Source: Candidatus Elarobacter sp. (GTDB taxonomy: Bacteria; Vulcanimicrobiota; Vulcanimicrobiia; Vulcanimicrobiales; Vulcanimicrobiaceae). From it: 9,567 nt of DNA. The notes under the pieces are model-generated. The model worked only from the letters and a program-made list of their open reading frames with translations, did not search any database and was not told the DNA's origin. Made by a program: the position numbers and the translations under genes. The stretch's first letter is position 1. The number at the start of each line of letters is the position of its first letter. Shown here one piece after another: positions 1 through 9,567 of the stretch. The stretch lies in NCBI GenBank assembly GCA_030150085.1, contig JASLGJ010000078.1, positions 1-9,567 on the forward strand, written 5' to 3'.

Positions 1-629
1 GCCGCCGCACTGCCGAAGCGGCGCACGAACGGCCCGTGCGGCAGCGCGGCCAGCTCGCCCAGGGTGCTCACGCCGAGCAGCCGCAGCCGTTCCGCGGCGG
101 CCGGGGGCAGCTCCAGCACCTCCAGCGGGAGCGGGGCGAGGAAGGCCGCCGGGTCGCCGCCGCAGACCGTCCCGTCGCCGCGCCCGGCGGCGGCCTGGGC
201 CACGAAGCGGTTCGGTCCCAGACCCAGGCGCACGGGCAGGTCGAACCCGGCCAGCGCGCCGCGCACCGCGGCCAGCCAGGCCCGGGCGCCTCCCGCGATG
301 CCTTGCATCTCCAAAAAAGCCCGGCCCGGGCCGTCGTCCTCGACCAGCGGCGAGGCCGCGTCGAGCGCGTCGAGCATCTCGCCCCAGACCCGCGCGCCGG
401 CGGCCGGGTCGTCGAAGACGGTCCGGGCCTCGTGCGCCACCGCCTGGGCCTGGACCAGCGTCATCCCCGCCCGCACCCCCAGCGCCGCCGCGCTCGGCGA
501 GCAGTCCAGCACCCGCCCGCGCTCCCTCCGGTCGGCCAGGACCACCGGCTCGCCCAGGTCGAGCCCGGGCTGCTCCAGCCGCGCCACCCCGAGCCGGAAA
601 GCGGGAATCCAGACGCACAGTACTGGCAT
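1..629 (-). CDS. imuB: ImuB-like Y-family DNA polymerase (partial, C-terminus outside window)
   Basis: About 209 N-terminal residues of an ImuB-type Y-family polymerase read leftward from ATG 629-627 and run off the window. The protein opens MPVLCVWIPAFRLGVARLE, and a fingers/palm segment ends in LGLGPNRFVAQAAAGRGDG, the Y-family 'G.a.NKfLAKiAs' region. A helix-hairpin-helix-like stretch follows (ERLRLLGVSTLGELAALP). The acidic residues expected for catalysis are missing: the N-terminal 'DxDxFFA' Asp is replaced by a WIPAF stretch, and the 'SIDE' motif by DDGPGRAFLEMQG. That is the known ImuB pattern: a non-catalytic adaptor that links the beta clamp, ImuA and DnaE2 in SOS translesion synthesis. 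The start is fixed by a SOS promoter whose -10 ends 9 nt upstream, so the message is nearly leaderless and has no Shine-Dalgarno site. Its usual partner imuA lies 2 kb away on the same strand. DnaE2 may lie beyond the left edge (inference). An active DinB is unlikely given the lost acidic residues. Confidence 0.85.
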   Translation of the reverse strand, partial: MPVLCVWIPAFRLGVARLEQPGLDLGEPVVLADRRERGRVLDCSPSAAALGVRAGMTLVQAQAVAHEARTVFDDPAAGARVWGEMLDALDAASPLVEDDGPGRAFLEMQGIAGGARAWLAAVRGALAGFDLPVRLGLGPNRFVAQAAAGRGDGTVCGGDPAAFLAPLPLEVLELPPAAAERLRLLGVSTLGELAALPHGPFVRRFGSAA

Positions 630-638
630 ATGAGTACC

Positions 639-667
639 ATTTTAATGAACATATGTTTGGTACACAA
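639..667 (-). promoter_or_regulatory. SOS-controlled promoter of imuB
   Basis: Read on the minus strand: -35 TTGTGT (667-662, 3 of 6 consensus), a 17-bp spacer, and -10 TAAAAT (644-639, 5 of 6). The LexA-type box lies wholly within the spacer, so bound repressor would block RNA polymerase. The predicted transcription start, about 7 nt after the -10, falls at about 632-631, only 0-3 nt before the imuB ATG. This implies a leaderless transcript. The -35 is weak, the -10 and spacing are good. Confidence 0.7.
647..658. promoter_or_regulatory. LexA (SOS) box upstream of imuB
   Basis: GAACATATGTTT matches the Gram-positive SOS box GAAC-N4-GTTY, with one mismatch from a perfect palindrome. It has the same central ATAT as the imuA box at 3493-3504. 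It sits between the -35 and -10 elements of the imuB promoter. Confidence 0.8.
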
Positions 668-792
668 GTGTCATAAACTAGCCCCTCTCCCCAGAAAGGA
701 CCCCGGTCGTGGCGATGCTGAGCTTCGCTAGGGCTGGACAGCTGAGCTCGGGTGCTGGAGATTAGCGTTTGAACGCGAATTGTTGCACGGAG

Positions 793-822
793 TTGACAAT
801 TACCGGGCTCGGTTCGTATCCT
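793..822 (+). promoter_or_regulatory. Promoter of the antitoxin-toxin genes
   Basis: TTGACA at 793-798 is a perfect -35. After an 18-bp spacer comes TATCCT at 817-822 (4 of 6). Transcription should start near 829, giving a leader of about 33 nt before ATG 862. TTGACAA (793-799) and TTGTCAT (822-828) form an imperfect inverted repeat flanking the core promoter, a possible autoregulatory operator. An arm pair GCGTT-TG-AACGC at 765-776 lies just upstream. Both operator suggestions are inference. Confidence 0.6.
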
Positions 823-861
823 TGTCATCTCGTCCGACCCGCGTGAATGAGAGGCACCTTG

Positions 862-1275
862 ATGACCGCTTCCAACCGGCGCGTTCTGTCGCCTCAAAGG
901 TCTCTCCGTGCCAACCTCACGTTCGAGCGCGCGCAAAAGCGCCTCTCGCAGGCCGAGCTCGCCAAGCGGGCCGGTGTGTCACGCCATGCCATCGTCCGGC
1001 TGGAGTCGGGCGAGTATCCGAACCCGGGTCTGGAGTTGCTCGACAAGATCGCGCGCGCGCTCGACGTCACCGTTCACCGCCTGCTCGAGCCGGTCGAGGC
1101 GGTTCCGCGCGAGCCGAGCGACGCCGAATTGCTGCGCCGAATGCAAGATCCGCCGAGCGAGTTCGTCGATGCCGACGATCTCATCGCCGCGGTCGACGAA
1201 GCGAACCGGGCCGCCGCTCAGCTCGGCGCTCGGCAGCGATACTCCAACCGGGGACGACGGCGGGTGGAGTCTTAG
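862..1275 (+). CDS. XRE/Cro-family HTH protein, probable antitoxin
   Basis: A 137-residue DNA-binding protein. Residues about 18-76 form an XRE (HTH_3) helix-turn-helix: RLSQAELAKRAGVSRHAIVR is the typical helix 2-turn-recognition-helix signature, followed by LESGEYPNPGLELLDKIA and RALDVTVHRLLE. Residues about 85-137 form an acidic tail (DADDLIAAVDEANRAAAQLG) ending in a basic stretch. ATG 862 is chosen over ATG 847 because GAGAGG (849-854) lies 7 nt upstream at good Shine-Dalgarno spacing. The 3' end overlaps a RelE-like gene in the +1 frame, so an antitoxin and autorepressor role is likely. The predicted activity is repression of its own promoter (793-822) and neutralisation of the toxin. 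The family is clear. The antitoxin role rests on context, and a stand-alone regulator is possible. Confidence 0.85.
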   Translation: MTASNRRVLSPQRSLRANLTFERAQKRLSQAELAKRAGVSRHAIVRLESGEYPNPGLELLDKIARALDVTVHRLLEPVEAVPREPSDAELLRRMQDPPSEFVDADDLIAAVDEANRAAAQLGARQRYSNRGRRRVES

Positions 1276-1555
1276 CCTGCACCGCGGCGTGCGCCGGATC
1301 ATCGACGGGTACGGCCTCGAAAACCAGCAGTTCAAACCGGCGCTCGCGCAGCTGCTCGCCGCGCTCAAGCGCGATCCGAAGCGGTTTCCGAAGAAGTCGG
1401 GTTCGCTGGATGCCGCGCGTTCCGCGAAGCTGCGTTTCCGCGGAGCGGCTTGGCGGGCGGTCTTCACGCTGGATGAAGAACGCCGGGTCGTGACCATCCT
1501 CTCGCTCGCTCCGCACGACCGGGCCTACGCCGAGGCGGAGCGCCGCCTGGGCTAG
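1169..1555 (+). CDS. RelE/ParE-superfamily toxin-like protein (start uncertain)
   Basis: The C-terminal about 95 residues have the RelE/ParE layout: a short first strand (WSLSL, from 1265), two helices (HRGVRRIIDGYGLE; FKPALAQLLAALKRDPKRFP), then the sheet KLRF-GAAWRAVFTLDEERRVVTILSLAPHD and a terminal AYAEAERRL. KLR, WRAVF and the late H/Y match where this superfamily keeps RNase or gyrase-interacting residues. The start is a problem. The fold should begin at or just before W at 1265, but no ATG, GTG or TTG lies there. ATG 1169 (used here, 128 aa) adds about 32 residues unlike any RelE N-terminus and overlaps the antitoxin by 107 bp. GTG 1289 would remove strand 1. A CTG at 1277 or frameshifting from the antitoxin are alternatives. 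The antitoxin-toxin order and overlap suggest a type II TA pair; the target is unknown. Confidence 0.65.
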   Translation: MPTISSPRSTKRTGPPLSSALGSDTPTGDDGGWSLSLHRGVRRIIDGYGLENQQFKPALAQLLAALKRDPKRFPKKSGSLDAARSAKLRFRGAAWRAVFTLDEERRVVTILSLAPHDRAYAEAERRLG

Positions 1556-1556
1556 G

Positions 1557-2144
1557 GTGCGGAAACGCCGCCTGCGCGCGGCGCGTTCCCAGGGCATGCT
1601 GTCCGCCGTTCTCGCCTTCGCGCTCGCGCAAGCCGCGCCGTCCGGTTCGCCGCTGCCCGCCGCCTCGGCCGTCCCCGCCGCTTCGGTCCCGCCGGAGGCT
1701 TCGGCCGCGCCGTCCGCTCCGGCGGCGCCGGTGGGCTCGGCCGCGCCGGGCGCGGCGGTGACGAGCCCGAGCGATCCCTCGCTGGCGATCATCATCAACT
1801 CCGGCTCGACCAACATCGCGGGCTACGTGCTGCGGGTGCGCAACGACGGCTGGACGACGCTCGAGCAGAACGGCGCGACGCAGCACAAGCGCGTCGACCA
1901 GGCGCTCGCGGCGCGTTTGTTCGCCGATTTGCGCGCGGCCGGACCGCTGGACGCGCTGCCGCGCGCGATGTGCATGAAGAGCACCTCGTTCGGCTCGGTG
2001 ACGACCGTCTCGTACCGCGGCGCGCGCTCGCCCGACCTGTCGTGCCCCGGCTCGTCGAGCGCGCAGACCGCGCTGGGCGCCGACGTCAACGCGCTGCGCG
2101 ACGCGGCCGGCGTCTCGCAGCGGCCCCGCAGCGAGTTTCGCTAG
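1557..2144 (+). CDS. Secreted protein with Ala/Pro/Ser-rich linker, unknown function
   Basis: A 195-residue protein, family not recognised. GTG 1557 gives a basic n-region (RKRRLRAAR), a hydrophobic core (MLSAVLAFALA, residues 14-24) and a likely signal-peptidase site after AQA, so export is predicted. ATG 1596 is an alternative start but would lose the positive residues. Residues about 27-72 are a low-complexity Ala/Pro/Ser linker. Residues about 75-195 form a compact domain starting LAIIINSGSTNIAGYVLRV, rich in strand-like segments, with two cysteines (Cys139, Cys163) that could form a disulfide outside the cytoplasm. The start lies 1 nt after the toxin stop, so the two are probably translationally coupled. 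A secreted protein is an unusual third gene for a TA operon. The lack of a lipobox argues against a lipoprotein. Confidence 0.75.
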   Translation: MRKRRLRAARSQGMLSAVLAFALAQAAPSGSPLPAASAVPAASVPPEASAAPSAPAAPVGSAAPGAAVTSPSDPSLAIIINSGSTNIAGYVLRVRNDGWTTLEQNGATQHKRVDQALAARLFADLRAAGPLDALPRAMCMKSTSFGSVTTVSYRGARSPDLSCPGSSSAQTALGADVNALRDAAGVSQRPRSEFR

Positions 2145-2250
2145 CCGTCCGCGCCGCGCGCTCGGATGTGCCGGCGAGCGTCAGATGAGATGAAGCTGAG
2201 GCCAGGGTGAGGGTTCGCTGAGACTTGCTTTGAGAAACGTCCCAGGTGCG

Positions 2251-2256
2251 TATCCT
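2251..2256 (+). promoter_or_regulatory. Probable -10 element for the small secreted protein gene
   Basis: TATCCT, preceded by CG exactly as in the antitoxin promoter (CGTATCCT at 815-822 and 2249-2256). No convincing -35 is present: TTTGAG at 16-bp spacing or TTGCTT at 20-bp spacing are the nearest. Transcription from here would begin near 2263, at the foot of the 2261-2281 hairpin. Confidence 0.4.
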
Positions 2257-2260
2257 GATC

Positions 2261-2281
2261 GGGCGGACGGCGCATCCGCCC
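2261..2281 (+). promoter_or_regulatory. 5'-leader hairpin
   Basis: GGGCGGA (2261-2267) and TCCGCCC (2275-2281) form a perfect 7-bp GC-rich stem with a 7-nt loop. It sits where the transcript from the TATCCT element is predicted to begin. A hairpin at the extreme 5' end often protects mRNA from decay; that role here is inference. Confidence 0.5.
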
Positions 2282-2287
2282 GCATTC

Positions 2288-2305
2288 CATCATCATCATC
2301 ATCAT
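2288..2305 (+). repeat. (CAT)6 trinucleotide repeat in the 5' leader
   Basis: Six perfect CAT units lie between the leader hairpin and the Shine-Dalgarno GAGGAG (2315-2320) of the downstream gene. The tract is 23 nt upstream of the start codon and outside any supported reading frame. Changes in unit number would alter leader length without affecting coding. Confidence 0.9.
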
Positions 2306-2328
2306 CCCGCGCCTGAGGAGAACACTCC

Positions 2329-2652
2329 ATGTTTCGCAAGACCCTCATCGCGACCGCGCTCCTGGCCTCCATCGTCGCCCCGCTGGCCGCGAGCGCCGGC
2401 GAGGTCGAGAACCGGCTCCACCACGAGCAGCAGCGCATCAACCAGGGCGTCAAGAACGGCTCGCTGACGTACGGCGAGTACCAGCGCCTCGACAACCGCG
2501 AAGACCGCCTCCAGGCCGAGCGCAACCGCGACCTGCGCCGCAACGGCGGCCACCTGACGCCGGCCGAGTACAAGCGCCTCAACCGGCAAGAGAACCGGCT
2601 CTCCGACCAGATCTACTTCCAGAAGCACGACCGCCAGCACCAGCACCGTTAG
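2329..2652 (+). CDS. Small secreted two-repeat protein, unknown function
   Basis: A 107-residue exported protein. A signal peptide is clear: MFRK, a hydrophobic stretch (residues 5-19), then ASA at 21-23 as cleavage site, leaving GEVENRLHHEQQR as mature N-terminus. The mature part is highly charged and contains two copies of one unit 30 residues apart: NGSLTYGEYQRLDNREDRL (43-61) and GGHLTPAEYKRLNRQENRL (73-91), each probably a turn plus an amphipathic helix. It ends in a His/Gln-rich tail (KHDRQHQHR) that might bind metal (speculative). Similar small periplasmic proteins with 'RI.QG...G.LT..E..RL..RE.R' repeats occur in many Gram-negative genomes without assigned function. ATG 2329 is supported by GAGGAG at 2315-2320 with an 8-nt spacer. 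It is probably monocistronic, since hairpins follow directly. Confidence 0.85.
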   Translation: MFRKTLIATALLASIVAPLAASAGEVENRLHHEQQRINQGVKNGSLTYGEYQRLDNREDRLQAERNRDLRRNGGHLTPAEYKRLNRQENRLSDQIYFQKHDRQHQHR

Positions 2653-2659
2653 GGGCGGC

Positions 2660-2674
2660 TCGGCCGAAGGCCGA
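2660..2674. terminator. GAA-loop hairpin, candidate bidirectional terminator (first)
   Basis: TCGGCC-GAA-GGCCGA forms a 6-bp stem 7 nt after the stop of the upstream gene. No T-tract follows. It is the first of two hairpins in the 51-bp gap between convergent genes. Confidence 0.55.
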
Positions 2675-2681
2675 ACGCGAC

Positions 2682-2702
2682 GGATCGCGCGAAGCGCGAT
2701 CC
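2682..2702. terminator. GAA-loop hairpin, candidate bidirectional terminator (second)
   Basis: GGATCGCGC-GAA-GCGCGATCC is a perfect 9-bp stem closed as GCGAAGC, a sequence known to form unusually stable DNA mini-hairpins. It abuts the imuA stop (2706-2704, minus strand). It lacks a T-tract, so it may instead act as an mRNA 3'-end stabiliser for either convergent transcript. Confidence 0.6.
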
Positions 2703-2703
2703 A

Positions 2704-3474
2704 CTAGCCGGCGCGGACCACCCGGCGCAGCGGTGCCGGGGCGGCCTCCGCGAGCGCGCGCTCGCGCAGGTCGACCAGCGGCGGCCGGTTCTCGAAGCTC
2801 TCGCAGCGCACCAGCGCGTCGCCCACCGGGGCGGCGCGTTTGTGCTTGCGCACGGTCGCGCGGACGTCGTAGCCGGCCAGCTCGCCGCAGTGGCCCGCCG
2901 GGCCGTTCCAGCGCACCCGCTCGATCGCCGTCTCCAGGCGCAGCGAGGCGAAGTAGCGCAGCTCGGCCGAGGCCTCGTCGCCCACCGCCAGCAGCAGCGC
3001 GCCCGCGCGGTGGGCCAGGCTGGCCAGGCGGGTCCAGGTCGCCGCGCCGGTTCCGCGCCCGCCGGGCAGCGCCGGGATCACGACCACCGCGAAGGCCTGC
3101 GAGCGCAGCGCGATGTCGGCCGCCCGCGCCACCGCGGCCGGCTCGTGGACCGGCACGACCAGCAGCCGCTCCAGCCGCACCCCGGCCGCCTCCAGCGCGG
3201 GCGGGAAGAGGTCGACCCCGATCAGCGCGGCCAGCCCGCGCCGGGTCGCCGCGGCCAGCAGCCGGGCCGCGAGCGCGCTGCGCCCCGAGCTGGGCGGCCC
3301 CTCCAGCGTCGCGATCGTCCCGCGCGGGAACCCGCCGCCCAGCGCCCGGTCGAGGTCCTCCAGCTCGGTCCGCAGCAGGGCCTCCTCGCTGCGCACGAAC
3401 GCGGCGGCCGCCGTCTCGCGGTGGCGGAGGTCGAGGCGCTCCCGAAGGGCTGCGAACGCCGGGTCGAGGCTCAT
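2704..3474 (-). CDS. imuA: ImuA-like RecA-fold protein of the SOS mutasome
   Basis: A 256-residue RecA-related protein of the ImuA type, which partners ImuB and DnaE2 in damage-induced mutagenesis. Residues 42-70 (LDRALGGGFPRGTIATLEGP, then PSSGRSALA) match the RecA 'LD.aLGGGlP.G.i.Ei.GPesSGKTtLa' region. The Walker A lysine is arginine (G59..S63-G64-R65-S66), so ATP binding is probably weakened. A hydrophobic strand (FAVVVIPALPGG, about 128-139) sits near the Walker B position. The C-terminus is basic (RKHKRAAP). ATG 3474 is preferred over ATG 3498: the latter lies inside the SOS box, upstream of the predicted -10. In typical genomes imuA directly precedes imuB. Here 2.1 kb of opposite-strand genes lie between them. 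ImuA is divergent, so 'RecA-like' is firmer than the exact name. Confidence 0.75.
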   Translation of the reverse strand: MSLDPAFAALRERLDLRHRETAAAAFVRSEEALLRTELEDLDRALGGGFPRGTIATLEGPPSSGRSALAARLLAAATRRGLAALIGVDLFPPALEAAGVRLERLLVVPVHEPAAVARAADIALRSQAFAVVVIPALPGGRGTGAATWTRLASLAHRAGALLLAVGDEASAELRYFASLRLETAIERVRWNGPAGHCGELAGYDVRATVRKHKRAAPVGDALVRCESFENRPPLVDLRERALAEAAPAPLRRVVRAG

Positions 3475-3483
3475 GGTCCGCCC

Positions 3484-3512
3484 AGCGTAATCGAACATAT
3501 GTTCTATGTCAA
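3484..3512 (-). promoter_or_regulatory. SOS-controlled promoter of imuA
   Basis: On the minus strand: a perfect -35 TTGACA (3512-3507), a 17-bp spacer, then TACGCT (3489-3484, 3 of 6) as -10. The LexA box fills most of the spacer. Transcription should start near 3477, leaving about 3 nt before ATG 3474, so the transcript is nearly leaderless. The design matches the imuB promoter at 639-667. Confidence 0.75.
3493..3504. promoter_or_regulatory. LexA (SOS) box upstream of imuA
   Basis: GAACATATGTTC is a perfect 12-bp palindrome and an exact match to the GAAC-N4-GTTC SOS box. It lies between the -35 and -10 of the imuA promoter. Confidence 0.88.
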
Positions 3513-3523
3513 CGCGCTGAAGT

Positions 3524-3543
3524 CATAGTTCTCTCGTACTATG
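3524..3543. repeat. Inverted repeat upstream of the imuA -35
   Basis: CATAGT (3524-3529) and ACTATG (3538-3543) are perfect 6-bp arms with an 8-nt gap. They start 12 bp upstream of the imuA -35. A second short palindrome, GTGAC-G-GTCAC (3544-3554), follows at once. Either could be an operator. No regulator is identified. Confidence 0.4.
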
Positions 3544-3603
3544 GTGACGGTCACGCCGCGTGCGCCGGCGCCCCGACGGGCGGATTCTCCGGAGCAGTTG
3601 CCC

Positions 3604-4097: not shown

Positions 4098-5390
4098 GTG
4101 ACCGTACTACCGACGATCTCCGCCTCGGCGATCGACGTCGCGCCGATCCGCTACGCCGACCGCACCCTCGCCAACGGCCTGCGCGCGATCCTGGTCCCCG
4201 ACCGGCGCGTGCCCTCGGTCGCGATCAACGTCGCCTACCAGGTCGGCGGCAAGGACGACCCGCCCGGGCGCTCGGGCTTCGCCCACCTCTTCGAGCACCT
4301 GATGTTCAAGGGCACCGCGCGGACCGCGCCCGAGACGCTCGACCGCCTGACCGAGGACGTGGGCGGCTACAACAACGCCTTCACGACCGAGGACATCACC
4401 AACTACTACGAGGTCGTGCCGTCCAACCACCTCGAGCGGCTGCTCTGGGCCGAGGCCGACCGGCTGGCCGCGCTCGACGTCAACCAGGCCAACTTCGCCA
4501 CCGAGCGCGAGGTCGTGATCGGCGAGTACGACCAGCGCATCCTGGCCGAGCCGTACGGGATGCTGGGCGAGCTGGTCGAGCGCGAGGCCTACACGGTCCA
4601 CCCGTACCGGCGCGGGGTGATCGGCGACCCGGCCCAGCTCAACGCGGCCTCGCTCGACGACGTGGTGGCCTTCCACGCCACCTACTACCGGCCCGACAAC
4701 GCGGTGCTGGTGGTGGCCGGCGACCTCGACCTCGAGCAGACCTTCGCCTGGATCGAGCGGTACTTCGGCGCGATCCCGCTCCCGCCCGGGAAGGTCCCGC
4801 GGGTGACGGCGACCGAGCCGGCCCAGACCGCCGAGCGCGGCTACACCTACCGCGCGGCCAACGTGCCGCTCCCGGCGGCCGAGGAGGCCTACCACATCCC
4901 GGCCCTCTCGCACCCCGACGCCGCGCCGCTGGAGGTGCTCGAGACGCTGCTGGGCGCGGGGCGCTCCTCGCGCCTGTACACCACCCTCGTCTACGGCAAG
5001 CAGCTCGCCTCGAGCGCCTACGCCGCGGCCGACCTGCGCCAGCACCCGGGGCTGTTCGGGGTGCGGCTGACCTGCGCCCAAGGGGTGGAGCTGGCCGCCG
5101 CGCGCGCCGCACTGGCCCTGGAGCTGGACCGGGTGCGCGACGAGCCGGCCGAGCAGAGCGAGATCGACCGGGTGAAGACCCAGATCGCCAGCGCCCTGGT
5201 GCGCTCGCGCCAGACCGCCAACGGCATCGCCCAGGCCCTGGCCCGGGCCACGACCGAGCGCGGCGACCCCGAGAGCGTCAACGGCGACCTGGCCCGCTAC
5301 CTGGCGGTGACGGCCGACGACGTGCAGCGCGTCGCGCGCACCTACCTGCGCGCGGAGAACCGGACCGTCGTCGAGTACCTTCCGGGATGA
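4098..5390 (+). CDS. M16 family zinc metalloprotease, catalytic subunit
   Basis: A 430-residue M16 (insulysin/processing-peptidase-like) protease. The inverted zinc motif HxxEH is intact (H63-L-F-E66-H67 in GFAHLFEHLMFKGT), and the third zinc ligand fits E143 in FATEREVVIGEYDQR, about 76 residues downstream as the family requires. An N-terminal M16 domain (about 18-180) and a C-terminal M16_C domain (about 185-370, with GAGRSSRLYTTLVYGKQLAS) make one protease half. These halves close like a clam over unfolded peptides. No signal peptide is seen, so a cytoplasmic location is inferred. GTG 4098 is the start used; the Shine-Dalgarno (AGGCGAGA, 4086-4093) is modest. Its stop overlaps the next start by 4 bp (ATGA), and the next gene encodes the complementary inactive half, so the two probably form a heterodimer. 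Confidence 0.93.
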   Translation: MTVLPTISASAIDVAPIRYADRTLANGLRAILVPDRRVPSVAINVAYQVGGKDDPPGRSGFAHLFEHLMFKGTARTAPETLDRLTEDVGGYNNAFTTEDITNYYEVVPSNHLERLLWAEADRLAALDVNQANFATEREVVIGEYDQRILAEPYGMLGELVEREAYTVHPYRRGVIGDPAQLNAASLDDVVAFHATYYRPDNAVLVVAGDLDLEQTFAWIERYFGAIPLPPGKVPRVTATEPAQTAERGYTYRAANVPLPAAEEAYHIPALSHPDAAPLEVLETLLGAGRSSRLYTTLVYGKQLASSAYAAADLRQHPGLFGVRLTCAQGVELAAARAALALELDRVRDEPAEQSEIDRVKTQIASALVRSRQTANGIAQALARATTERGDPESVNGDLARYLAVTADDVQRVARTYLRAENRTVVEYLPG

Positions 5391-6766
5391 GCATCTCGGC
5401 CGCGATCCCGGCGCCGGGGCCGGTGCGCGAGGCGACCTTGCCTGCCCCGGTCGAGCGCGTCCTCGGCAACGGCCTGCGGGTCGTGGCCTTCGCCCAGCGC
5501 GGGCTGCCGCTGGTGGCGGCCCAGCTCGTGGTGCGCTGCGGCGCGGCGGCCGAGCACGAGGACGAGGCCGGGCTGGCCGCGCTGACCGCCGCCCTGCTCA
5601 CCCAGGGCACGACCGCCCACGACGCGCTGGCCCTGGCCGCCAGCGCCGACGCGCTGGGCGCGCGGCTGGACGCGGGCTCGGGCTACGACGCGACCCTGAT
5701 CTCGGTCAGCGCCACCACGCCCGCCTTCCCGCACGCCTTCGCGCTGCTCGAGGAGGTGGTGCGGCGGCCGGCCTTCGCCCCGCGCGAGGTCGAGCGGGTG
5801 CGGGCCAAGTCGATCTCCGACCTGGCCCTGACCTACGCCAGCCCGAGCAGCGTGGCACGCCTGGCGGCCCAGCGCGTGGCCTACGGCAGCGCGCCCTACG
5901 CCCACCCGCTGGCCGGCACCGCCTCCTCGCTGGCCGGGCTGACCCGCGACCGGGTGGCCTGGTTCCACGAGCGCTTCTACCGCCCCGACGACGCCGTGCT
6001 GGTGATCGGCGGCGACCTCGCGGTCGAGGAGGCCTTTCGCCTGGCCGAGCGGGTGCTGGGCGGTTGGCGCGCGCCCGACGCGCCGCTGTCCGACTTCCCT
6101 TCCGGCGCGATGCCGGCGCCGCGCGAGCGCGTGGTGATCGTCGACAAGCCCGAGGCCGGGCGGACCGCGCTGCTGGTCGGGCGGCTGAGCATCGAGCGCC
6201 GCTCGCCCGACTACTATCCGGCCGTGGTCGCCAGCGCCGTGCTGTCGGGCTACAGCGGGCGGCTCAACCAGGAGATCCGGGTCAAGCGCGGGCTCTCGTA
6301 CGGGGCCTCGGCCTCGGTCTCGCCGCGCCGCCTGCCGGGGCTGTTCCTGGCCTCGACCCTGGTCGACCACAGCCGCGCCGCCGAGGCCACCGAGGTCACG
6401 CTGGAGACGATCCGCTCGCTGGCCGAGCGCCCGGCCCAGGCCGAGGAGCTGGCCACCCGCAAGGCCACCGTGACGGGCGGCTTCTACCGGGGGATCGAGA
6501 CCGTCGACGGGATCGTCGGCTCGCTCGCGGAGCTGGTGCTCTACGACGCCCCGCTGAGCGACCTGGGGGCGTACGTGCCGCGGGTCCTGGCGGTCGACGC
6601 CGAGACGGTGCGCGACTTCGCGGCCCGGGCGCTGGTGCCCGACGACTTCACGGTGCTGGTGGGCGACGCGGCGAAGTTCGCCGACGCCCTGCGCGCCGCG
6701 CACGCCGACGTCACGGTGATCGCCGCCGAGGCGCTCGATTTCCGTTCGCCGACCTTGGGAGTGTAG
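5387..6766 (+). CDS. M16 family protein, non-catalytic partner subunit
   Basis: A 459-residue M16 homologue in which the zinc site is gone. Aligning GLAALTAALLTQGT with GFAHLFEHLMFKGT of the upstream gene puts Ala65, Ala68 and Ala69 at the three HxxEH positions. The C-terminal half keeps RGLSYG (R301, Y305), the Arg/Tyr pair that in paired bacterial and mitochondrial M16 proteases positions substrate for the active partner. Other M16 landmarks are present: FYRPDDAVLVIGGDL (about 197-211) and SGYSGRLNQEIRVKRG (about 287-302). It is translationally coupled to the catalytic subunit by a 4-bp overlap, and heterodimer formation is expected from known paired systems. Loss of zinc ligands with retention of R/Y argues for a working partner over a decayed gene. 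Confidence 0.92.
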   Translation: MSISAAIPAPGPVREATLPAPVERVLGNGLRVVAFAQRGLPLVAAQLVVRCGAAAEHEDEAGLAALTAALLTQGTTAHDALALAASADALGARLDAGSGYDATLISVSATTPAFPHAFALLEEVVRRPAFAPREVERVRAKSISDLALTYASPSSVARLAAQRVAYGSAPYAHPLAGTASSLAGLTRDRVAWFHERFYRPDDAVLVIGGDLAVEEAFRLAERVLGGWRAPDAPLSDFPSGAMPAPRERVVIVDKPEAGRTALLVGRLSIERRSPDYYPAVVASAVLSGYSGRLNQEIRVKRGLSYGASASVSPRRLPGLFLASTLVDHSRAAEATEVTLETIRSLAERPAQAEELATRKATVTGGFYRGIETVDGIVGSLAELVLYDAPLSDLGAYVPRVLAVDAETVRDFAARALVPDDFTVLVGDAAKFADALRAAHADVTVIAAEALDFRSPTLGV

Positions 6767-9080: not shown

Positions 9081-9567
9081 ATGTTAATTAGCAGTCGTCG
9101 GTCGAATCCAACTCCGGGAGCCACGTACAGGTCGCGTCCCAATCGAGGGTGTCCTGCTTTGTAAGAACATGCTTTTCCCGCTTTATAATACGGGCCATAG
9201 TGTACGACGCAATGCCGTCCTAGCGGTCCAACGACCCGTTGACGGCCGAAGCCGGTTGGTGGAAATGTGGCGTGTAGCGTACTTTGCCGAATTCAATGAT
9301 CTGGTGATTACTTGCCGTCTTAAATACCCGTAGAGCGCTGAAAGCGTCCTTAATGACCCCTACGAAGGCGGGGGAGAAGTCGTCTGCGGTATTCTCCGTC
9401 TCAATGAGTCTTGCGTAAATTTCGGACAGTGCCCTTCGCCTTCATAGAGTCAGGCGAAACCGAGCGTTCTCACGATTTGAAGCGCGTCTAGTTCTGTTCT
9501 TTAAGTGCGTTAGAGCATATGATCAAAGGTTGGTAAGAATTCGGGCGAGCCATGCGAAGGGCGGACG
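9081..9567. other. AT-richer region without an intact gene
   Basis: This 487-bp stretch differs sharply from the rest: 24 of the 60 bases at 9481-9540 and 30 of 60 at 9301-9360 are G or C, against 48 of 60 at 5581-5640. No intact reading frame of useful size is present on either strand. A TATAAT at 9184-9189 with TTGTAA 19 bp upstream (9159-9164) is promoter-like on the plus strand, but AT-rich DNA gives such matches by chance. The one interesting signal is a stop-interrupted coding-like frame on the minus strand. Foreign origin, decay or an assembly join are all possible. Confidence 0.7.
9088..9567 (-). pseudogene. Degraded coding-like remnant, unidentified
   Basis: On the minus strand one frame (TAA stop at 9090-9088) reads like protein apart from internal stops TAG (9222-9220), TGA (9444-9442) and TGA (9525-9523). 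The best segment, 9441-9223 (73 codons), reads RRRALSEIYARLIETENTAD, then FSPAFVGVIKDAFSALRVFK and IIEFGKVRYTPHFHQPA. The piece after the TAG contains YTMARIIKREKHVLTKQDTL, then DWDATCTWLPELDSTDDC. No segment has an ATG with a ribosome site that opens the whole. A different frame just upstream (about 9490-9450) reads ELDALQIVRTLGFA, hinting at a frameshift too. I do not recognise the family. A faint resemblance of 'V.YTPHFHQP' to the GrpE 'fdP..He' region is too weak to name it. A chance open frame cannot be excluded. Confidence 0.35.

Follow-up and report, generated by a model that had tools for sequence, protein, structure and literature searches.

Probable break-up of the imuA-imuB operon into separately LexA-boxed units in a Candidatus Elarobacter genome and most of its clade

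The imuA-imuB-dnaE2 (imuABC) mutasome cassette, in its operon form, is one uninterrupted unit, as described in the excerpted text of PMC3901139. The stretch of DNA analyzed here (the window) is a 9,567-nucleotide contig from Candidatus Elarobacter sp. (assembly GCA_030150085.1, contig JASLGJ010000078.1), in which imuA and imuB are neither adjacent nor placed behind one promoter. Both genes are on the minus strand, and the interval between them holds a 2.1-kb block of opposite-strand genes and a second promoter-like site. An earlier sequence-only reading of the window left two options: either the block was inserted and imuB had, or acquired, an SOS promoter of its own, or the genes persist in this lineage as two SOS units. 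The question raised by this locus is which of the two applies. The operon has probably been taken apart, in the window’s genome and in most of its clade, into units with their own LexA-type box. imuA and imuB are predicted to be LexA-repressed and to be induced separately by DNA damage, and the opposite-strand genes are probably gap filler. An inherited conversion of an operon into a regulon is the best reading of the evidence.

The identity of the two genes, given in the sequence-only reading as imuA (3474-2704) and imuB (629-1), was borne out by profile searches with both proteins and by relatives. The imuA open reading frame (ORF) spans 2704-3498 on the minus strand. Its product has a RecA-like domain, and its best NCBIfam match is ImuA (NF033429, E 1.6e-13), at 51 bits, less than the curated cut-off of 150. 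The protein is 68-86% identical to 17 aligned relatives. Named ImuA relatives carry labels such as Candidatus Elarobacter, Eremiobacteraeota, and Vulcanimicrobium. RecA has a K at the Walker A position equivalent to the R of the ImuA SSGR loop. This R is invariant in all 18 aligned rows, an observation that concerns the ATPase site and not activity. Loss of the ATPase site of ImuA is described in the part of PMC6511836 consulted. The imuA gene of one relative (G006; G numbers denote genomes) matches in two pieces (locus L031, 4004-5204).

The imuB fragment comprises the N-terminal 209 codons (3..629, minus strand) and runs off the left end of the window. It contains a Y-family polymerase domain (PF00817, IMS, E 5.7e-15). 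Over the best stretches it is 70-75% identical to ImuB of G001-G004 and 54-58% identical to that of G005 and G006. Full-length ImuB is 492-519 residues long in seven relatives. Compared with the DinB paralogues of three relatives, the catalytic acids are replaced (FDLDAF by VWIPAF, LDEAF by PGRAF). Their loss is as expected of ImuB, and the protein is apparently catalytically dead. ImuA, this apparently dead ImuB, and DnaE2 presumably cooperate in the manner of the mutasome of known bacteria.

The claim that each imu gene has a LexA box also held. Both boxes are of the GAAC-N4-GTTC type, and each lies within the 17-nucleotide spacer of a sigma70-like promoter. The imuA box (GAACATATGTTC, 3493..3504) is 30 nucleotides before the start codon. 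Its predicted promoter, TTGACA-17-TACGCT (3484..3512, minus strand), was read from the sequence and has the layout seen in relatives. The imuB box (GAACATATGTTT on the plus strand, 647..658) is 29 nucleotides before the start codon, within the predicted promoter TTGTGT-17-TAAAAT (639..667, minus strand). This promoter, read in the same way, matches at five of six -10 positions and is placed as in boxed relatives. Allowing two mismatches, the box pattern has six matches in the window against 0.12 expected, and none of 200 shuffles reached six; every site counts twice, once per strand, and a weak site at 9513 accounts for two of the six. The loci that supplied the null for a position weight matrix of the box contain many real boxes, and the p-values of this matrix were not used.

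The distance from box to start codon is shared. Counted from the box start, it is 29-31 nucleotides in all 14 imuA promoters read in the clade and 29-32 nucleotides in nine of nine boxed clade imuB genes. An in-frame ATG lies 28-33 nucleotides after the box start in all 17 boxed dnaE2 loci, 11 of them in the clade. The imuA start of the window (2704..3474, minus strand) is therefore placed at 3474, as in the sequence-only reading, and not at the 3498 of the ORF tool, which falls inside the box. In the database, the window’s ImuA (P0001; 2707-3498) begins at an ATG that falls within the LexA-type box, and the starts of P0021 and P0112 are further upstream still. The N-termini annotated for some ImuA proteins of this group are thus likely too long. 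The -10 element of the clade SOS promoters lies at box +13 to +16, and the start codon is about 9-12 nucleotides past it. Given this geometry, the SOS transcripts of imuA, imuB, and dnaE2 are predicted to have little or no leader. Outside the clade, two boxed imuA rows (G030 and G034) depart from the usual box-to-start spacing.

The boxes are regarded as SOS operators because lexA itself carries them in relatives. A lexA match was found in 15 of the 18 genomes searched, and all 15 have two such boxes upstream (L113-L127). These are 57-61 nucleotides apart, and the second always ends in GTTT, which is the GAAC-N4-GTTT form present at the window’s imuB. The lexA gene of this phylum thus appears to have a conserved double operator. 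The imu genes share this operator with the lexA genes of relatives, as members of a LexA regulon do, and LexA would be expected to bind at these boxes.

To place the split in the phylum, ImuA and ImuB profiles were run against 149 of its genomes. Among the matches listed, 97 imuA-imuB pairs lie on one contig and strand in 96 genomes; 80 of the 97 are less than 300 nucleotides apart and 17 are at least 468 nucleotides apart. RecA- and DinB-level matches were omitted from this count, G111 was counted twice, and G096, G124, and G069 are unpaired on one contig. Also excluded were second ImuA copies on G125:C295 and G127:C109, which end without reaching imuB; G128 and G130 end inside imuA. A quick tree of 47 rows was made from ImuA and ImuB. 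The window falls in a 15-row branch with a Shimodaira-Hasegawa-like approximate likelihood ratio test support of 100. All 13 determinable rows of this clade are separated (window, G001-G004, G096, G122-G127, and G129), and two rows are undeterminable. The gap ranges from 523 nucleotides (G126) to 57 kb (G004). G096 has imuA and imuB on separate contigs, and the sequence read around imuA there contains no match to imuB. Seven separated genomes lie outside the clade among the matches listed (G005, G006, G064, G081, G091, G098, and G131). Parsimony on the 47-row tree gives five changes between split and contiguous.

The clade-wide split bears directly on the idea that the block is a recent mobile insertion into contiguous imuAB, in this genome or its near kin. 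The presence of a toxin-antitoxin pair in the block and the scatter of toxin relatives over 16 of the 149 genomes would suit such an event. Against it stand the 13 separated rows, the occurrence of the SEC1 and SEC2 families of the block elsewhere on chromosomes of the phylum, the lack of any toxin match at E 1e-5 in 72,556 plasmid records, and the imuB promoter-like site, which has the layout of the clade. A recent insertion is extremely unlikely and was rejected. Of the two options of the sequence-only reading, a fresh insertion here thus falls and lineage-kept SOS units stand, with the separated clade set against the 80 contiguous pairs of the phylum, but with the limit that some clade rows have no imuB box. 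An assembly chimera might be suspected from a 9.6-kb contig. The same order recurs in several assemblies and within one contig of 3,508,363 bases (G123), and this explanation was rejected as practically negligible.

An imuB box of its own is present in nine of the 13 clade rows (window, G003, G004, G096, G122, G123, G125, G127, and G129); that of G123 is a one-base variant. For 25 of the 80 contiguous pairs, the interval running from within imuA up to imuB was scanned for boxes, and none of the 25 has an imuB box. In six of these rows and in G098 the imuB start was first guessed from partial alignments; a rescan of the whole interval left the counts unchanged and picked up the box of G098. Of the seven genomes that are separated but lie outside the clade, G098 alone has an imuB box. 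A Fisher test for association between layout and box gave p 5.8e-5; it takes no account of kinship, and the argument does not draw on it.

The third gene of the cassette was sought in 20 genomes. All have a match to the dnaE2 family, a model that picks up the replicative polymerase as well; 15 of the 20 pass its cut-off. A box precedes dnaE2 in 17 of the 20 loci read. The three without one are G091, where the gene lies about 0.5 kb after imuB, G099, at a contig end, and G125, where the stretch read is a dnaE-type relative of 31% identity. In seven of 12 clade genomes (G001, G002, G096, G123, G124, G126, and G129), dnaE2 is on the contig and strand of imuB, 6-25 kb downstream. In G003, G004, G122, G125, and G127 it is on another contig. 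Where readable, the clade mutasome is thus spread over three units, with imuA and dnaE2 boxed and imuB boxed in most.

Several points weigh against this reading. imuB has no box in four of the 13 clade rows (G001, G002, G124, and G126), so separate LexA control is not universal, and six of the seven separated genomes outside the clade have none either. The contrast between box and layout rests on about two independent gains. The window’s own imuB promoter has a weak -35 (three of six positions), and its box departs once from the palindrome. A TTGACA-like -35 is found in only three of 11 clade dnaE2 loci, though the box, the -10 position, and the start distance are shared. No imuA box was found in G131. 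The operator and dnaE2 evidence comes from relatives, since the window ends inside imuB and its own dnaE2 and lexA lie outside it.

The boxless rows are also the ground for a different explanation, in which imuA and imuB still form a single transcription unit. SOS-induced transcripts starting at imuA would continue antisense across the intervening genes into imuB, as a noncontiguous operon, and the imuB box would only reinforce it. All four boxless clade members keep the order and strand of the two genes. Boxless gaps are shorter (468-1756 nucleotides, n = 10) than boxed ones (687-57419 nucleotides, n = 9; Mann-Whitney p 0.016, kinship uncorrected), a comparison that omits G096 because its distance is unknown. 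Within the clade, four boxless gaps against eight boxed give p 0.048, likewise uncorrected for kinship. The stops of imuA and SEC2 overlap by a few nucleotides in G002, G003, G124, and G125 and are about 3-14 nucleotides apart in G127, G123, and G001, which leaves little room for a terminator in these seven genomes. Noncontiguous operons are described in Staphylococcus aureus in the part of PMC7154746 consulted. On the other side, imuB of the window has its promoter-like site, and two stable hairpins lie in the space between the converging SEC2 and imuA genes (2653..2703), with no T-run (fold of 2646-2712, −34.3 kcal/mol, z −2.3). Read-through is unlikely to span the 57 kb of G004. A simple length rule also has exceptions, since G001 lacks a box at a gap of 1756 nucleotides, and boxes are present in G098 and G122 at gaps of 687 and 825 nucleotides. 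A single unit throughout is considered unlikely.

Under the preferred reading of separately boxed units, the imuB box would have replaced read-through from imuA. The pattern of boxless short gaps and boxed long ones fits read-through over short gaps and an own promoter over long ones, as a correlation with exceptions. A more detailed course can be proposed tentatively, in which the change from operon to regulon is preserved genome by genome. Short opposite-strand inserts would first be read through, giving a noncontiguous SOS operon. As the gap grows, imuB would gain a LexA-boxed, near-leaderless promoter built like that of imuA. The gap would then be free to stretch to tens of kilobases and to collect cargo. 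This course is possible, with the odds somewhat against it.

The four plus-strand genes named in the sequence-only reading (XRE, RelE-fold, and two secreted-type) were confirmed between imuA and imuB. SEC1 (1557..2144, plus strand) and the small SEC2 (2329..2652, plus strand, convergent with imuA) are secreted-type proteins, with secretion inferred by eye from the N-terminus. SEC1 is in the gap in 10 of the 13 clade rows and SEC2 is beside imuA in eight of the 13. The SEC1 family occurs in 91 of the 149 genomes and is a common chromosomal family; the best PDB match to its predicted fold, Mago nashi, has E 0.022, and none falls below 0.001. SEC2 matches occur in 23 of the 149 genomes and are beside imuA in nine of those. 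In G081 and G091, outside the clade, SEC2 is the sole gene between imuA and imuB.

The remaining cargo is variable. It consists of the toxin-antitoxin pair in the window and G001, an NAD-dependent epimerase in G123 and G127, a beta-lactamase-family protein in G125, a Flp pilin in G003, and an AAA ATPase with others in G129. The 805-nucleotide gap of G122 has no convincing gene. Outside the clade, the interposed gene can share the imu strand, as does an esterase in G005 (with a similar ORF in G064 by eye) and a methyltransferase in G098. An esterase-type gene on the same strand, between imuA and an imuB without a box, was observed outside the clade at L032 (2636-3565) and L037 (408-1331). Most likely, the split would have arisen once at the base of the clade, by a chromosomal rearrangement that brought in the ordinary genes SEC1 and SEC2. 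The slot would afterwards have kept gaining and losing cargo, the toxin-antitoxin pair included.

This pair is composed of an XRE-type antitoxin (847..1275, plus strand; HTH_3, E 3.5e-13) and a RelE/ParE-fold toxin (1262..1555, plus strand). The toxin frame scores 24.3 bits against PF15781 (E 3.2e-5; cut-off 28) and 17.8 bits against PF05016 (cut-off 23), below both Pfam cut-offs. Its start codon is uncertain, and a GTG at 1289 would give 88 residues. The structural model (predicted local distance difference test score 96.7) matches RelE and HigB structures (best E 3.4e-4). A RelE fold beside an antitoxin places the pair among type II toxin-antitoxin systems, in the RelE/ParE superfamily. PADLOC gave only helix-turn-helix-type matches for the antitoxin and no match for the toxin. 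An XRE antitoxin lies beside the toxin relative on one strand in nine of 12 loci. HigBA systems are known to have the toxin gene first. The window’s pair is like HigBA and RelBE in having a RelE-fold toxin beside an XRE antitoxin; it differs in that the toxin is below the Pfam cut-offs and the antitoxin comes first.

The sequence-only reading had also raised, as speculation, that the pair could tie growth arrest to DNA damage as a partner of the mutasome. The pair does sit between two SOS-type promoters. The window antitoxin is 63% identical to the G001 copy at the same spot and 36-45% identical to copies elsewhere, and the pair may have been kept there. This same difference suggests that the window and G001 pairs may descend from one insertion, lost by others. 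The box scan of the window found no LexA-type box on the pair, which has its own sigma70-like promoter-like site, TTGACA-18-TATCCT (793..822, plus strand; 10 of 12 positions). It is the only such site found in 560-3600, with 0.1 expected. Toxin relatives at the imu locus are found, besides the window, only in G001, and the pair is absent from the locus in the other 11 determinable clade rows. The speculation gains no backing from these results; an SOS device was rejected as very unlikely, and the pair is probably a passenger.

Other features of the window were also recorded. Two adjacent M16 peptidase genes (4098-6766) diverge from imuA, and their position is kept in 12 of the 15 clade rows; in G127, one of the two is cut by a contig end. 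The pair is about 6 kb away in G004 and G096, and the G124 contig begins inside imuA. The last 483 bases of the window (9085-9567) have 52% G+C against 74% elsewhere and hold no confident gene. An Rfam scan of the window gave no match at gathering scores.

Compared with known systems, the locus shares with the imuABC cassette its ImuA- and ImuB-type proteins, the replaced ImuB acids, the LexA-type boxes, and dnaE2 downstream in relatives. It differs in that opposite-strand genes separate imuA from imuB and imuB has its own box. In Mycobacterium tuberculosis, according to the same excerpts of PMC3901139, imuA’ and imuB are together and dnaE2 is apart. That mutasome is likewise split, with more than one LexA-controlled unit, but imuA’ and imuB are together there and apart here. 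Dispersal of the cassette into three or four places is mentioned in the consulted part of PMC8072749; dispersal is shared, and opposite-strand genes between imuA and imuB are not described in that part. The S. aureus noncontiguous operon menE-menC-MW1733-ytkD-MW1731, from the consulted part of PMC7154746, also has co-directional genes around an opposite-strand gene. It differs in that the second gene here has its own promoter-like site. No description of imuA and imuB split by opposite-strand genes with a second box was found in the literature consulted, which was seen in part and did not include the main layout survey (Erill et al. 2006). A literature search on the phylum name together with LexA found no paper. 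Since split mutasome cassettes are already known, the separation of imuA and imuB by opposite-strand genes, with a second box, is a variant and no new kind.

Genes whose products work in one complex would be expected to remain together in an operon. In this clade, imuA, imuB, and dnaE2 are maintained as separate units, most of them with LexA boxes, amid turnover of the unrelated genes between them. Its boxed and boxless members make the break-up of an operon without loss of co-regulation testable. The locus suggests, moreover, that a toxin gene can be flanked by SOS genes on both sides without belonging to the SOS response.

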